From Corallococcus soli (GTDB lineage: Bacteria; Myxococcota; Myxococcia; Myxococcales; Myxococcaceae): 64,000 nt of DNA. Below are positions 22,562 through 45,935 of this stretch, piece by piece. A program made the translations under genes and the position numbers. The DNA is taken from NCBI RefSeq assembly GCF_014930455.1, contig NZ_JAAIYO010000011.1:186001-250000 (forward strand), written 5' to 3'. The notes below the pieces were generated by a model that was not told where the DNA came from, made no database searches, and worked only from the letters and a program-made list of their open reading frames with translations. Each line of letters starts with the position of its first letter. Within the stretch, counting starts at the first letter, position 1.

Positions 22562-22579
22562 GCCGTCAGCGGCGGCTCA
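22559..22579. terminator. Hairpin spanning both stop codons of convergent genes
   Basis: TGAGCCG (22559-22565) and CGGCTCA (22573-22579) are exact reverse complements with a 7-base loop. The left arm begins with the TGA of the lipoprotein gene, and the right arm ends with the TGA (read on -) of ppk1. It could serve as a bidirectional terminator; there is no T-run. Confidence 0.45.
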
Positions 22580-24748
22580 CGCCACCGGACGGCCGCTCTG
22601 CATGTGGACCATCCGGATGGCGCGCTCCATCAGCTCGCCCTGGGCGGAGCGCTTGTCCCCGGTGGCCGGCGGGATGCGCCGGCGCCAGGTTCCGTCCGAG
22701 GCCAGCTCCCAGGAGCCGCTGGTGTCCATCATGCAGCGCTCCACCACGTCGCGCACCTGGGCGCTCAACGACGGCTCCTCCACGGGCGCCAGGATCTCCA
22801 CGCGGTGGTCCAGGTTGCGCGGCATCATGTCCGCGGACCCGATGTAGCACCGCGACGTCGCGCCCCGTTCAAACGAATAGATGCGCGGGTGCTCCAGGAA
22901 GCGGCCCAGGTTGGACACCACGCGGATGTGCTCGGACACGCCGGGCACCCCGGGCCTGAGGCAGCAGATGCCGCGCACGTTGAGTTCCACCTTCACCCCC
23001 GCGCGGGACGCGTCGTACAGCGCGCGGATGATGCCGGGGTCCACCAGCGCGTTCATCTTCATCAGGATGCGCGACGGGGTCTCCGGCGTGTGCGCGGCGA
23101 GGGTCTTGCGGATCTCCTCCATCAGGCCCTCGCGCATGGTGAGCGGCGCCACCAGCAGCTTGCGGAAGGAGCGCGGCCGGCCAAAGCCCGTCAGGAAGTT
23201 GAAGACGTCCGCCACGTCCGCGCCAATGTCCGGGTCCGTGGTGAACAGGCCCAGGTCCGTGTAGAGCCGCGCCGTCTTCGGGTTGTAGTTGCCCGTGCCG
23301 ATGTGCACGTAGTGCCGCACCCGCTCGCCCTCGCGCCGCACGATGAGGATGGCCTTCGCGTGCGTCTTCAGGCTGGGAATCCCATACACGACGTGCACGC
23401 CCGCCTCTTCCAGCGCGTTCGCCCAGCGGATGTTGGTGCGCTCGTCGAAGCGGGCCTTCAGCTCCACCATGCACACGGCCTGCTTGCCCTGCTCCGTCGC
23501 GCGGATGAGCGCGGGCACCAGGGGGGAGCTGTCCGACGTGCGGTACACCGTCTGCTTCAGCGCCAGCACGTCCGGGTCCTCCACCGCCTCGCTCACGAAG
23601 CGCTCCACCGACGTGGTGAAGGATTCGTAGGGGTGGTGCACCAGCAGGTCCCCCCGGCGCATCGCGGACATCACCGTGCCCCCGCCCTCCGGGGACTCGC
23701 TGTCCGTGCGCAGCCGCGCCTGCGTCACCGGCGTCCACGGCGGGTCCCGCTGCTCCGTGAAGCCCGGCGTCATGGCCAGCGACATCACGTCCGCCAGGTC
23801 CAGCAGGCCGTGCTCCTCGTACACCTGGCGGGGCTCCAGCGTCAGCGCCTCCACCAGCGGCTCCAGCAGCTTCGCGCTCATGCCCGCCTGCACCTCCAGG
23901 CGGATGACGTCCCCGAAGCGGCGCTGGCTGAGCTCCGTCTCCACCGCCTTGAGCAGGTCCTCCGCGTCCTCGGACACGGTGAAGTCCGCGTCGCGCGTCA
24001 CGCGGAACAGGCTCCAGTTGAGCACCTCCATCCCGGGGAACAGGTCCCCCAGGTGCTGCGCGATGATCTCCTCCAGCGGCACGAAGAACGAACCCGCGCC
24101 GCCCTTGAGCGGCACGAAGCGCGGCAATATCTCCTTGGGCACCTTCACCCGCGCCACGCTCTCCTCCTCCGCCACCGGGTCGCGCAGCAGCACCGCGAGG
24201 CTCAGCGACAGGTTGGAGATGTACGGGAAGTGCCGCCCCAGCCCGATGGCCAGCGGCGTGAGCACCGGGAAGATCTGCTCGCGGAAGCGCTGGTCCACCT
24301 GCGCGCGCTGGTCCGCGTCCAGCTCCTTCATGGAGAGGATGCGCAGGCCCTTCTCCGACAGCGCGGGGCGGAGCACCTTCTCGAAGCAGTCCGCGTGGCG
24401 GCGGCCCTGCTCCAGGATGCCCGTGTGCAGCTTGTCCAGCGTGTGGCCCGGGGACGCGCCGTCCGGCACCAGCCGCCCCACGCGCGCGGCGATCTGCTCG
24501 TGCAGGCGCGCCACGCGAATCATGAAGAACTCGTCCAGGTTGCGCGCGTAGATGGAGATGAACTTCAGCCGCTCCATGAGCTGCACTTCCGGCGACTCGG
24601 CCAGCTGCAACACCCGGTCGTTGAACGCGAGCCACGACAGCTCACGGTTGAAGAACAGGTCGCTGTCCGTCACCTCCGTCCCGGGGGGCACCGCGTCCCG
24701 CTCCACGGACTTCTGGGTGACGCCCTTCGCGGCGGCGCGCTTCGCCAT
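22577..24748 (-). CDS. ppk1: Polyphosphate kinase 1
   Basis: 723 residues, the usual PPK1 length. It reversibly polymerises ATP gamma-phosphate into polyphosphate. The N-terminal domain opens with FFNRELSWLAFNDRVLQLAE, followed by LKFISIYARNLDEFFMIRVA. The phosphotransfer domain contains VELKARFDERTNIRWANALE and the phospho-His region HIGTGNYNPKTARLYTDLGL. The second PLD-like half has RCYIGSADMMPRNLDHRVEI. ATG 24748 has GAGGAG upstream; the frame is open to 24949 without conserved sequence. It stands alone, divergent from the BamE-like gene. In myxobacteria polyphosphate metabolism affects stress survival and development. Confidence 0.97.
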   Translation of the reverse strand: MAKRAAAKGVTQKSVERDAVPPGTEVTDSDLFFNRELSWLAFNDRVLQLAESPEVQLMERLKFISIYARNLDEFFMIRVARLHEQIAARVGRLVPDGASPGHTLDKLHTGILEQGRRHADCFEKVLRPALSEKGLRILSMKELDADQRAQVDQRFREQIFPVLTPLAIGLGRHFPYISNLSLSLAVLLRDPVAEEESVARVKVPKEILPRFVPLKGGAGSFFVPLEEIIAQHLGDLFPGMEVLNWSLFRVTRDADFTVSEDAEDLLKAVETELSQRRFGDVIRLEVQAGMSAKLLEPLVEALTLEPRQVYEEHGLLDLADVMSLAMTPGFTEQRDPPWTPVTQARLRTDSESPEGGGTVMSAMRRGDLLVHHPYESFTTSVERFVSEAVEDPDVLALKQTVYRTSDSSPLVPALIRATEQGKQAVCMVELKARFDERTNIRWANALEEAGVHVVYGIPSLKTHAKAILIVRREGERVRHYVHIGTGNYNPKTARLYTDLGLFTTDPDIGADVADVFNFLTGFGRPRSFRKLLVAPLTMREGLMEEIRKTLAAHTPETPSRILMKMNALVDPGIIRALYDASRAGVKVELNVRGICCLRPGVPGVSEHIRVVSNLGRFLEHPRIYSFERGATSRCYIGSADMMPRNLDHRVEILAPVEEPSLSAQVRDVVERCMMDTSGSWELASDGTWRRRIPPATGDKRSAQGELMERAIRMVHMQSGRPVA

Positions 24749-24958
24749 GACGTGTGACTCCTCGAGCAGACCCGCACTCAGGATGTGCCCTCTAGCAGCC
24801 CCGAACCGTTCCGATTGTGAACTCGCACGCCTGGAATGGCACCAGACGTCCTGACGTATCCCACCCTGGCTGACGTTGTCGGCGGCCGGTGGGGCGGGGG
24901 CGGGGTGGACTTTCCTGCATCCCTTGCATCCCGGGAGCGCGGACGGCATTCAGGAGGG

Positions 24959-25482: not shown

Positions 25483-25516
25483 CCCCATCCAATCCTTTAT
25501 AAAGGATTAGATGGGG
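25483..25516. promoter_or_regulatory. Palindrome O1, HipB-type operator candidate
   Basis: Two 17-base arms (25483-25499 and 25500-25516) pair with a single mismatch (25509). The core is AATCC, eight bases, GGATT (25491-25508). E. coli HipB operators read TATCC-N8-GGATA, so half-sites, orientation and spacing match, with only the outermost base changed on each side. It lies about 80 bp before the hipA-like start, and I infer it is the autorepression site for the hip genes. Confidence 0.75.
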
Positions 25517-25544
25517 TCCAGTGGGCCCAATAAATATGGTTTAA

Positions 25545-25558
25545 CGGATTAAAATCCG
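25545..25558. promoter_or_regulatory. Inverted half-site pair between the operators
   Basis: CGGATTAAAATCCG is a palindrome using the same half-site words as O1 and O2 but in outward order (GGATT then AATCC, two bases between). Its centre is 52 bp from the centre of O1 and 32 bp from O2, near five and three helical turns. It may be an accessory site; TAAAAT inside it could equally be a -10 element. Confidence 0.45.
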
Positions 25559-25570
25559 CTGTTCGAGCAA

Positions 25571-25596
25571 ATCCAATCCTTTATAAAGGATTGGAT
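25571..25596. promoter_or_regulatory. Palindrome O2, overlapping the hipA start codon
   Basis: Perfect 26-base palindrome (arms 25571-25583 and 25584-25596) with the core AATCC-N8-GGATT at 25575-25592, the same word as O1. Its centre is exactly 84 bp from that of O1, about eight helical turns, so bound dimers would sit on the same face of DNA. The last two bases of the right arm are the A and T of the hipA-like ATG (25595). A repressor here would block initiation directly. Confidence 0.78.
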
Positions 25597-26881
25597 GGAG
25601 CTCCACCTCCAGGCGCTGATTGACGGGACGTGGCAGCGGGCGGCCCTGCTCGAGTTCTCCTCGGTGACGGGGGGGCGACGCGGCGGATGCACCTTCGAGT
25701 ACGAGCACGATTACCTGGTTCGGTGGATCGCCGATCCGCCACCGCTTGCCGCGGCGAGCCTCAATCTCCCGGTCGAGTTTGGCCCCAGGGTCTGGCGCCG
25801 TTGGCCAGCATTCCTGGATGACCTGCAACCGATGGGGAGTGCCCGTCGCTGGTGGCTGCGTCGGCTGAACCTCGTTGATGCGTCGGCGAGTGACTTCGAA
25901 ATCCTGCGGTGCGGCACGATCGCGCCGGTCGGTAATCTCCGAATCGAAGAGGCGGTTCCCGCGAAGAAGGAACATCCCAAGCGGTTCCCGCGCCAGTCCG
26001 TCATCGACCGCGAGCACGCCTTCATCGAGTACGCCGCGGACGCCGGCGCGCAGGTCGGAGGCGCGACGGGTGCCGGTGGCGATTCGCCGAAGCTCCTGCT
26101 CCGCTGCGACGACGCGGAGCAGGTGTGGATTGACGTCTGGCAGGATGACCTCGCCTGTCCAGATCGACACTACCTCGTCAAGTTCGCGCGCAGCCGCAGC
26201 GAGCGCGACCGAAACATCCTTCGTTCAGAGTACGTGTATTACAAGGCGCTCGCGGCGATCGGTGTCGAGACCATTCCGCAAGACGGGCTCGCGCTCCACG
26301 AAGGCCCCTCAGGCCCGAGCCTCTGGCTTCCCCGCTTTGATGTCGCGCGCCGGGACGGCCGTGAAATCCGGTACGGACTCGAGTCCCTCTATTCGCTGCT
26401 CAAGGCGGAGCCTGGCTCCTTCCAGAAGCATCAAGCCGCATTGAGCGCACTGCGCGGCGGCGTCCCCGCGTCGGATTGGCCGGCCGTGCGGCTCGAATAC
26501 CTGAAACGAGACCTGCTGAATCTTGTGTTCGGCAATTCGGACAACCACTGCAGGAACATCGCCGTGCTCAAGACGGACAGCACCGTCCGCCTCGCGCCCA
26601 TCTTCGACTTCGCACCGATGAAGATGGACCTCGAAGGGATTACCCGCACCACGACGTGGGAAGGGTACGAAGCCGGCGGAAGCGTTGACTGGGCTGGGCT
26701 TCTTCGAAGCTTCGGCCCAGATGAGGCGTCGTTGCACGAAGGCCTTCATGACCTTGCCTTGCGCCTTCGGAATCTCCCCGAGTTGCTCGCGGACCTCGGG
26801 CTGCCAGATGAAACGCTAGGCTTCGCGGCCATTGATTTCCCCGGAACCGAGAAGCGCCTCCGCGCATGGGGCCTTCTATGA
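25595..26881 (+). CDS. HipA-family Ser/Thr kinase (toxin-like)
   Basis: 428 residues. HipA toxins phosphorylate glutamyl-tRNA synthetase or other targets and cause dormancy. Recognisable parts are a Gly-rich loop GATGAGGDSPKLLLR (the GGxRPK-type variant of the phosphate loop), ATP-binding HYLVKFARS, a core helix RSEYVYYKALAAIGVE, LWLPRFDV, the catalytic FGNSDNHCRNIAVL (Asp/Asn pair) and the metal-binding LAPIFDFAPM. All needed residues appear intact. ATG 25595 lies within operator O2; AAGGA is four bases upstream. The gene ends in ATGA with the hipB-like gene. DNA here is visibly less GC-biased at third positions than its neighbours, suggesting transfer. Substrate unknown. Confidence 0.85.
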   Translation: MELHLQALIDGTWQRAALLEFSSVTGGRRGGCTFEYEHDYLVRWIADPPPLAAASLNLPVEFGPRVWRRWPAFLDDLQPMGSARRWWLRRLNLVDASASDFEILRCGTIAPVGNLRIEEAVPAKKEHPKRFPRQSVIDREHAFIEYAADAGAQVGGATGAGGDSPKLLLRCDDAEQVWIDVWQDDLACPDRHYLVKFARSRSERDRNILRSEYVYYKALAAIGVETIPQDGLALHEGPSGPSLWLPRFDVARRDGREIRYGLESLYSLLKAEPGSFQKHQAALSALRGGVPASDWPAVRLEYLKRDLLNLVFGNSDNHCRNIAVLKTDSTVRLAPIFDFAPMKMDLEGITRTTTWEGYEAGGSVDWAGLLRSFGPDEASLHEGLHDLALRLRNLPELLADLGLPDETLGFAAIDFPGTEKRLRAWGLL

Positions 26882-27270
26882 AGCGCGCGGACGTCGCCCG
26901 GCTGACCGCGCTCGAACGCAAGGCGCTGCTGGAAGAGCTCGCTGCCATGGTCGCCACCGGAGAATTGGGCCTGGGGGACGCCGCGCGCATCCTCCGCAGC
27001 GCGATGCTGGGGATGGACCGGAAGACCTTCGCGCAAGCGATGAAGCTCTCTACGAGCGTCATCGCGAAACTCGAAGACGATCCGAACGCGAATCCGACGC
27101 TCGAGACGCTCAACAAGGTCTTCGCGCCGTTCGGTGGAAAGGTCGCGTTGTCGTTTCCCCACCTCGAAGAGGCACCGCCGCTCGACGATGCAGGGAAGCA
27201 ACGGCGAGAAATGCTCCACGCCGCGCTCGCGAAGAGCAGGCGGCAGCGGCGGCGCTCGACGGAGTCGTAA
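26878..27270 (+). CDS. HipB-like Xre-family HTH antitoxin
   Basis: 130 residues. ATG 26878 overlaps the hipA-like TGA (ATGA), so translation is coupled. The N-terminal half is helical (VARLTALERKALLEELAAMV); the Xre-type HTH is at about 55-100: MDRKTFAQAMKLSTSVIAKLE, then NPTLETLNKVFAPFGGKVAL. The C terminus is basic. It should bind the operators at 25483-25596 and inhibit the kinase. The order toxin-then-antitoxin is reversed from E. coli hipBA, where the antitoxin comes first. It is longer than E. coli HipB (88 residues), with an added N-terminal arm. Confidence 0.83.
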   Translation: MKRADVARLTALERKALLEELAAMVATGELGLGDAARILRSAMLGMDRKTFAQAMKLSTSVIAKLEDDPNANPTLETLNKVFAPFGGKVALSFPHLEEAPPLDDAGKQRREMLHAALAKSRRQRRRSTES

Positions 27271-44360: not shown

Positions 44361-45935
44361 GTGATTGCGTAAGCGTTCACGGGGTGGAGCTCGCCTGATG
44401 GGTCAGTGAGGCAGCGAACGGTGGGGCCCACCACGCTCGACGTGGGCTGGGGACGGATTAGAAATACTGGGACGTGGCCATGCCCGACCCGAGAGATGCG
44501 CGTATCGCGGAGCTGGAGCGACTGCTGAGCGCGGCGCTCGCGCGAATCGAGCAGCAGGACGCTCGCATCGCGGAGTTGGAGGCGCGGCTGCGGAGCACCT
44601 CGCGTAACTCCTCGAAGCCTCCGTCCTCGGACCCACCCGGTACGCCGCCCAGCAAGTCGGAGCCGACGGGGCGCAAGCCCGGAGGCCAGCCCGGCCACAA
44701 GGGCCGCAAGCGCGAGCTGCTGCCGCCGGAGAAGGTGACGCAGGTGGTGGCGGTGCCCGCGCCGGAGCGTTGCACGGGCTGCACCGGGCTCCTGTTGCGA
44801 CTGGAGAGCACGCCTCCCGCACGAATCCACCAGGTGGTGGAGTTGCCGCGCATCGTGCCCGAGGTGAAGCAGTACGAGTTGCACGCGGGCTGGTGCGCCG
44901 GCTGCGACACCTGGCGCTGCGCACCGCTGCCGGCGGGAGTGCCCGAGGGCAACTTCGGTCCGCGCCTGACAAGCTTCATCGCCCTTTGCACCGGGCGCTT
45001 CCGCCTGTCCAAGCGACGGGTGCAGGAGTTGCTGCAGGACGTGCTGGGCGTGGAGCTGGCGCTCGGCAGCGTCAGCAACCTCGAGCAGGCGGTGAGCAGC
45101 GCTCTGGCGGCGCCGGTAGACGAGGCACGCGCGTATGTGCGGACGCAGCCGGCCGTGCATCAGGATGAAACCGGGTGGTGGCAAAAGCATGCCAGGGCTT
45201 GGCTGTGGGTGGCCAGCACCGCGACCGTGGCCGTCTTCCTCATCGTCAAGAGTCGCGGCAAGGACGTCGCCCAGGCGATGCTGGGCAAGGGCTTTCAAGG
45301 AACGCTCATCTCTGACAGGTGGTGTGCCTACAACTGGGTGCACGCCCTCAGGAGGCAGGTCTGCTGGGCCCATCTGGTGCGCGAGTTCGAGGGATTCGTC
45401 GAGCGCGGCGGGGAGGCGAAACGGCTGGGAGCGTTGCTGCTGGCCGAAGTCTTCGTCCTCTTCGAATGGTGGCACCTGGCACGCGATGGGCTGCTGTCGC
45501 GCGCCACCTTCCAGCGCAAGATGCGACCGCTGATGCGAGAGATGGAGCGGCTCCTGGCGGAGGCCGCGGACGTGTGCCCGAAGAAGGTGGCCGGCACCGC
45601 CAGGGAAATCCTCAAGCTCAAGGACGCCCTCTGGACGTTCGTCTATACCGAAGGCGTCGAACCCACCAACAACCTCGCCGAGAGGGACCTGCGCCATGCA
45701 GTCATCTGGCGAAAGACGAGCTTTGGCACCCAGAGCGAGGACGGCAGCCGCTTCGTCGAGCGTATCCTCACGGCCGTGATGACCCTCCGCAAGCAGGAGC
45801 GCAACGTGCTCGACGCTCTCACGGCGTCCCTCGAAGCCCATCTCCACGGCCCCCCCGCACCCTCGCTCCTGCCCGGCACATAATCTCAGCTCACGCTCGC
45901 GGCCTTCGGCCCCCCGTGAACGCTTACGTGATTGC
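44361..45935. mobile_element. IS66-family insertion sequence with perfect 8-bp target duplication
   Basis: The element itself spans 44369-45927 (1559 bp). Its ends are perfect 16-base inverted repeats, GTAAGCGTTCACGGGG at 44369-44384 and CCCCGTGAACGCTTAC at 45912-45927. They are flanked by identical 8-bp direct repeats GTGATTGC at 44361-44368 and 45928-45935, the target-site duplication length typical of IS66. It carries a single transposase gene without the accessory tnpA/tnpB genes, as in the ISBst12-type subgroup. Intact ends and duplication indicate a recent insertion, into intergenic DNA. Confidence 0.95.
44474..45883 (+). CDS. IS66-family transposase (TnpC/DDE)
   Basis: 469 residues. 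An N-terminal coiled coil (ARIAELERLLSAALARIEQQ), a Ser/Pro/Lys-rich stretch with SSKPPSSDPPGT, a zinc-finger-like region with CxxC pairs (ERCTGCTG, WCAGCDTW), then the DDE catalytic core. The core includes VHQDETGWW (first Asp), LISDRWCAYNWV (second Asp) and GVEPTNNLAERDLRHAV (catalytic Glu region), followed by an IS66 C-terminal segment. Everything needed for activity appears present with no frameshift. Translation may start at 44474 (GTG) or 44480 (ATG). It belongs to the mobile element described separately. Confidence 0.95.
   Translation: MAMPDPRDARIAELERLLSAALARIEQQDARIAELEARLRSTSRNSSKPPSSDPPGTPPSKSEPTGRKPGGQPGHKGRKRELLPPEKVTQVVAVPAPERCTGCTGLLLRLESTPPARIHQVVELPRIVPEVKQYELHAGWCAGCDTWRCAPLPAGVPEGNFGPRLTSFIALCTGRFRLSKRRVQELLQDVLGVELALGSVSNLEQAVSSALAAPVDEARAYVRTQPAVHQDETGWWQKHARAWLWVASTATVAVFLIVKSRGKDVAQAMLGKGFQGTLISDRWCAYNWVHALRRQVCWAHLVREFEGFVERGGEAKRLGALLLAEVFVLFEWWHLARDGLLSRATFQRKMRPLMREMERLLAEAADVCPKKVAGTAREILKLKDALWTFVYTEGVEPTNNLAERDLRHAVIWRKTSFGTQSEDGSRFVERILTAVMTLRKQERNVLDALTASLEAHLHGPPAPSLLPGT

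Follow-up and report, generated by a model that had tools for sequence, protein, structure and literature searches.

The antitoxin HipB of Escherichia coli recognizes the sequence TATCC-N8-GGATA (PMC3376134). Four such sites precede hipBA and, by the lag measure used below, they are spaced 28, 39 and 28 bp apart. In this classical arrangement the antitoxin gene comes first. In 2021 Gerdes et al. reported modules with the reversed order, hipAB and hipEB (PMC8262856). HipAB of Shewanella putrefaciens CN-32, encoded in genomic island GI21, is toxic in E. coli and is neutralized by HipB; its promoter is repressed 2.1-fold by HipB and 2.9-fold by HipA and HipB together (PMC8978831). On plasmids and in Myxococcota, toxin-first Hip modules occur widely, and in the open-licence papers searched we found no mapped operator for any of them.

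The locus analysed here lies in a 64,000-nucleotide stretch of Corallococcus soli DNA, which we call the window. A kinase gene is followed by a gene for a helix-turn-helix (HTH) protein and preceded by palindromes that resemble the E. coli HipB site. How should this resemblance be read? A first-pass annotation proposed that operator logic had been kept while the operon around it was rearranged. Comparison with related loci leads elsewhere. An operator spacing of about 42 bp, with one operator placed at the start codon, is conserved within the clade; the operator sequence is not. This puts right the idea that E. coli-like operators survived a local rearrangement of the operon. A fixed spacing combined with a changing site sequence separates the geometric part of repression from the sequence part, and its recurrence in distant relatives allows a clear test of self-regulation in this family. 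We found no earlier description of a phased array in the open-licence papers searched.

The gene pair and its clade

The upstream gene encodes a HipA-family kinase, and the HTH gene follows it with a 4-bp ATGA overlap, both as the first-pass annotation had it (Table 1). Several hallmarks of HipA-homologous kinases can be recognized: the HipA_C domain, the Gly-rich loop (VGGATGAGGDSPK), the NxDxHxxN motif (here the catalytic GNSDNHxRN) and the metal-binding Asp (in APxxDFAP). The three motifs are invariant across seven orthologues. The match to the HipA N-terminal domain falls just under its cut-off, and the predicted structure of the kinase is poor (pLDDT 56). E. coli Ser150, the autophosphorylation site next to the Gly-rich loop, aligns with Gly159; Thr158, adjacent to it, is invariant. 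Matches of the HTH protein are weak, lying under the Pfam cut-offs and, in Foldseek, at E > 0.2. It is distantly related to E. coli HipB (hhalign E 1.5e-4).

Table 1. Features of the module, in window coordinates except for the last row
Feature	Position	Strand	Basis and remarks
HipA-family Ser/Thr kinase (putative toxin), 428 aa	25595..26881	+	PF07804 7.2e-22, above cut-off
HipB-like XRE/HTH protein (putative antitoxin, autorepressor), 130 aa	26878..27270	+	weak HTH_3 and TIGR03070 matches
Operator 1 (distal), 34-bp palindrome with one mismatched pair	25483..25516	.	centre 25499.5; 18-bp core AATCCTTTATAAAGGATT at 25491-25508, exact AATCC-N8-GGATT
Operator 2 (middle), AATATGGTTTAACGGATT, degenerate left half	25533..25550	.	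centre 25541.5; AATAT-N8-GGATT
Operator 3 (start-proximal), perfect 26-bp palindrome	25571..25596	.	centre 25583.5; core 25575-25592, exact AATCC-N8-GGATT
Weak candidate promoter (TTAAAA, 17 bp, TCCAAT), between operators 2 and 3	25549..25577	+	inferred, low confidence
23-bp direct repeats in genome G007, locus L185	1028-1050 and 2863-2885		numbered after reversal

In a maximum-likelihood tree, 33 toxin-first kinases form one clade (support 96/99), separate from E. coli HipA, from the kinase of the host's own hipBA and from the YjjJ group. The clade spans Myxococcota and plasmids of Alpha-, Beta- and Gammaproteobacteria, and in 33 of 34 loci the gene directly downstream of the kinase, in the same orientation, encodes an HTH protein related to that of the window. 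A tblastn search returned 135 plasmid records with relatives (up to 43% identity), among them records from Ewingella, Rahnella, Acinetobacter, Agrobacterium, Rhizobium, Bradyrhizobium, Marinobacter and Variovorax; nearly always their annotated neighbourhoods show the kinase first and then the HTH gene. Because the toxin-first order runs throughout the clade, it is a property of the clade and not of a local rearrangement. The rearrangement proposed at first thus falls away, the more so as the order had been on record since 2021.

Judged from its primer-encoded termini only, the Shewanella pair appears to belong to this clade. The published cloning primers (PMC8978831) translate to (M)EQLTIQA and RWGLV-stop, which are the termini of the toxin-first kinases. 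The window kinase has termini of the same type, M-x-x-LT[LI]Q at the N terminus and R-x-WGL[LV] at the C terminus, the comparison being one of termini alone.

The 9.44-Mb host genome, whose nearest named relatives belong to the Myxococcaceae, encodes three other HipA homologues: a kinase of 666 aa, an antitoxin-first hipBA of the classical kind and a single gene resembling YjjJ (loci L083-L085, at G000:C7:464488, G000:C5:553513 and G000:C11:274964). A link to phages was rejected: no relative was found in the phages or viral contigs searched, and a PADLOC defence search gave no strong match. The neighbouring divergent gene encodes polyphosphate kinase (window 22577-24949, minus strand). Lon, to which polyphosphate binds, degrades HipB of E. 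coli (PMC3376134). The neighbourhood of the module is kept only in the closest species, so the juxtaposition is probably coincidence.

Operator spacing and operator sequence

Two AATCC-N8-GGATT palindromes 84 bp apart had drawn attention to this locus. Both are exact, and they form the cores of operators 1 and 3. Operator 3 reaches into the kinase start codon, as first described: it contains a Shine-Dalgarno-like AAAGGA (25585-25590) and the AT of the ATG at 25595. Between the two, the first-pass annotation had placed a third inverted pair, GGATT-AA-AATCC (25546-25557). We rejected this candidate on finding it absent in orthologues (GGATTAAGATTCG, GGATTAAAAAGCG and GGATTAAATGCCG). Comparison of the orthologue upstream regions identified operator 2 instead. 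With operator 2 at 25533-25550, the centre-to-centre distances are 42 and 42 bp and not 52 and 32 bp. Each equals four turns at 10.5 bp per turn, so that the placement of all operators on one face of the DNA stands with corrected distances.

The site is rare. Allowing up to one mismatch, AATCC-N8-GGATT has three matches in the window against 0.32 expected. Across the 9.44 Mb of the genome it occurs in three places, two of them at the hip module, and a backwards-read control gives none. The sole other exact site, C8:363826, was considered as a sign of a regulon beyond the module. It sits within what looks like an open reading frame and for that reason is probably a chance match.

Are these positions kept in relatives? 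Seven loci, which we call group A, were aligned at the kinase ATG: those of the window species, the metagenome-assembled genome PMG_225, A. violaceum, M. eversor, M. xanthus AM003, M. vastator and G044. Two pseudogene loci were left out of the operator comparison. Operators centred at -53.5 and -11.5 from the ATG are found in the same register in all seven. The middle operator, degenerate in the window, is in Archangium violaceum a near-perfect palindrome (AATCCGGTCCACCGGATT), equally far from the ATG. The distal operator lies at -95.5 in five of the seven (the window species, PMG_225, M. eversor, M. vastator and G044), is 1 bp further away in M. xanthus AM003 and has been lost in A. violaceum.

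The period extends beyond close relatives. In five more distant myxobacterial loci (group B) the palindromes differ in sequence from those of group A, and the self-similarity of the upstream region peaks at a lag of 42 bp in both groups (z 5.7 in group A and 4.5 in group B, against all other lags). A motif search in this divergent group returned recurrent sites at -89.5, -47.5 and -5.5, again 42 bp apart, with no single clean consensus. When the lag z is averaged over 34 loci of the clade, one sharp peak appears, at 42 bp. The best lag is 41-44 bp in 20 of the 34, counts that are not fully independent given the loci's shared ancestry, compared with 0, 3, 2 and 1 of 34 in four control regions of the same loci; a lag of 41-43 bp ranks within the top three of 54 in 26 of the 34 loci. 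In the other 14 loci the best lag lies outside 41-44 bp, and in some (Rleg, Burk, G194 and Polar) no array was detectable. The operator sequences themselves diverge, which argues against simple inheritance of sequence.

The sites read ATGAGT..ACTCAT in Rahnella, AACCATCATGATGGTT in Variovorax and ATCCATTGCAGTGGAT in Rhodovastum, with ACCC..GGGT types in rhizobia. Half-sites of the types ATGCA-, TACT-, ATGAGT-, ACCC- and AACC- are found among close relatives within the clade. The conserved site of the first reading is thereby lost, the half-site having changed repeatedly among the related loci searched, and the match to E. coli TATCC-N8-GGATA looks like one variant among many. Could the operator logic nevertheless descend from an ancestor shared with E. 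coli hipBA and have been kept through a reversal of gene order? The half-site does equal that of E. coli except for its outer base (PMC3376134), and the distant relationship of the two HTH proteins noted above would fit. Set against this, besides the variation among close relatives and the clade-wide toxin-first order, are the E. coli spacing of 28, 39 and 28 bp and a recognition helix in which HipB KQATISN aligns with STSVIAK. We regard such descent as very improbable.

The palindromes might also act as RNA. In this reading they are hairpins, of which the start-proximal one would mask the ribosome-binding site together with the start codon, so that control would be translational. For the two perfect palindromes the folding energies as RNA are about -22.6 and -21.0 kcal/mol, and a hairpin of the second would take in both AAAGGA and the ATG. 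In relatives, however, the arms are imperfect and shorter, yet the repeats still agree in their half-sites and the 42-bp lag persists. Transcription probably begins downstream of the distal copy; should it begin inside operator 3, the hairpin there cannot form. We consider RNA hairpins unlikely and treat the palindromes as DNA operators in what follows.

The most distant myxobacterial relative (L117, G194:C141) has a different upstream region. Its kinase start, at 2577, is preceded by a 9-bp tandem repeat, CGGATCAAT, with lags of 18, 27, 36 and 45 bp, and there is no 42-bp array.

Selection, decay and insertion

The kinase is under purifying selection, with dN/dS of 0.15-0.22 overall and 0.17-0.22 in comparisons that include the window gene. 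In five myxobacterial genomes the HTH gene has been kept and the kinase is broken, truncated or deleted (six copies: G011, G038, G044, G053 and, twice, G144). We saw no intact kinase without its HTH gene among the myxobacterial genomes. This asymmetry of retention is only suggestive, since the kinase, 3.3 times longer than the HTH gene, is the larger target; six of six would arise by chance with a probability of about 0.2.

Two of the decayed copies deserve description. In G053 (C19, locus L077, about 44895-45400) the kinase has been deleted down to its last codons. What is left is an orphan antitoxin, the HTH gene, together with an array of its own made up of three operator-like palindromes. 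The strict even-centre joint score missed this array, which is visible by eye with a spacing of about 41-43 bp. In G044 (L010/L081) an in-frame deletion has taken out kinase residues 267-317 and with them a portion of the catalytic loop; both the operators and the HTH gene are intact. The product is likely to be a catalytically dead toxin kept in frame.

Does the module then encode a toxin at all? It might instead be a relic, decayed or not toxic, whose HTH-regulated kinase serves signalling of another sort. Decay of the kinase in several relatives would suit such a reading, as would the absence of a Ser at the aligned autophosphorylation position. Intact kinases, however, keep all catalytic motifs and the low dN/dS given above, the Shewanella relative is toxic and can be neutralized (PMC8978831), and the distribution is patchy, plasmid-borne and insertional. 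A relic seems to us improbable, and we retain the reading of a toxin-antitoxin pair.

In two genomes of the same genus, G009 and G013, the site of the module is empty. In the sister genome G007 (L185, G007:C423, reversed) the module forms an insert of about 1.8 kb; the stop codon of the upstream gene immediately precedes it, and that of the antitoxin gene closes it. On either side lies an exact 23-bp direct repeat, CGCCCGCCCCCGTCCAGCCGTAG, identical to the last bases of the upstream gene. The insert contains the operators, the kinase and the antitoxin and nothing else; there is no recombinase. The window has the same left junction (25450/25451), and the right junction and about 2.6 kb beyond it have been lost.

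Promoter, mechanism and known systems

A scan for the sigma-70 consensus found no match in the window region. The weak candidate promoter in Table 1 recurs in the same register in five of the seven group-A loci. In 13 of the 18 proteobacterial members scanned, the -10 element of the best promoter lies between two operators, compared with about 7 expected from position. Typically the -35 element borders directly on the upstream operator, with the start point close to the middle of the downstream operator; examples are TTGAAT/TATAAT in Rhizobium and TTGTAA/TATTAT in Marinobacter.

Taken together, the sequence comparisons make it highly probable that the locus is a type II toxin-antitoxin module of a toxin-first Hip clade, repressed at its own promoter by the HTH antitoxin, by itself or together with the kinase, through a phased array. 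The sites, their spacing and its conservation, the clade, the gene order, the insertion and the survival of antitoxin genes beside decayed kinases can be read from the sequences directly; binding, repression, kinase activity, toxicity, promoter position and cooperativity are what we infer from these patterns. Functional evidence of a direct kind is that of the Shewanella pair, with its toxicity, neutralization and self-repression (PMC8978831). The upstream gene would produce a HipA-type Ser/Thr kinase, the putative toxin. The antitoxin, translationally coupled to it through ATGA, would dimerize on the palindromic operators. With the promoter probably between the middle and start-proximal operators, repressor at the middle operator would cover the -35 side, and repressor at the last would cover the transcription start, the ribosome-binding site and the start codon. 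Antitoxin, probably in complex with the kinase, would fill the array and shut the operon off. When free antitoxin falls, the array would empty and both proteins would be made again.

What fixes the distance at 42 bp? Promoter geometry alone, with repressors sitting over -35 and +1 and no role for helical phasing or contacts between complexes, is a serious candidate to which we give somewhat less than an even chance. The proteobacterial promoters mostly lie between two operators with the -35 next to the upstream operator, and the lags range over 41-44 bp, both as this account would have it. It fits less well with the sharpness of the peak at 42, with the additional upstream operator copies in Rahnella, A. 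towneri and LZH, and with the third operator of most group-A loci, which lies 42 bp further upstream, clear of the promoter. That the distal operator keeps the phase although it stands outside the promoter makes contacts between adjacent complexes a better explanation than promoter geometry alone. More tentatively, complexes of antitoxin and kinase might form a regular polymer on the array, phased at four turns. Contacts between neighbours would fix the 42-bp period, and selection would preserve the geometry from phylum to phylum, leaving the operator sequence and the recognition helix to drift in concert. We hold this polymer to be possible but doubtful; if it exists, each module would be insulated from the others (orthogonal) and yet mechanically identical to them.

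How does the module compare with described Hip systems? HipBST has three genes, with a separate HipS and a short HipT kinase; here there are two genes and the kinase has 428 residues. E. coli HipH (YjjJ) is the closest curated kinase model, matched below its cut-off (NF007297), and is the best profile match (hhalign E 1.3e-10). It differs in being a single gene with its own N-terminal HTH and no downstream antitoxin, whereas the window kinase lacks an N-terminal HTH and has a partner gene downstream. The Shewanella HipAB resembles the window module as a toxin-first pair of a 448-aa kinase and an HTH partner; its operators are unmapped in PMC8978831, where no phased array is described. In hipAB (within clades VI/VII) and hipEB (clade IX) of the Gerdes survey (PMC8262856), which includes no operator analysis, the kinase likewise comes first, with the HTH antitoxin downstream, and stands apart from classical HipA. 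With E. coli K-12 hipBA (clade I) the module shares a HipA-fold kinase, an HTH antitoxin and several palindromic operators with N8 cores and ATCC/GGAT half-sites. It differs in gene order, the antitoxin being upstream in E. coli, in spacing (42 and 42 bp here against 28, 39 and 28 bp) and in its kinase, which lies far from E. coli HipA in the tree.
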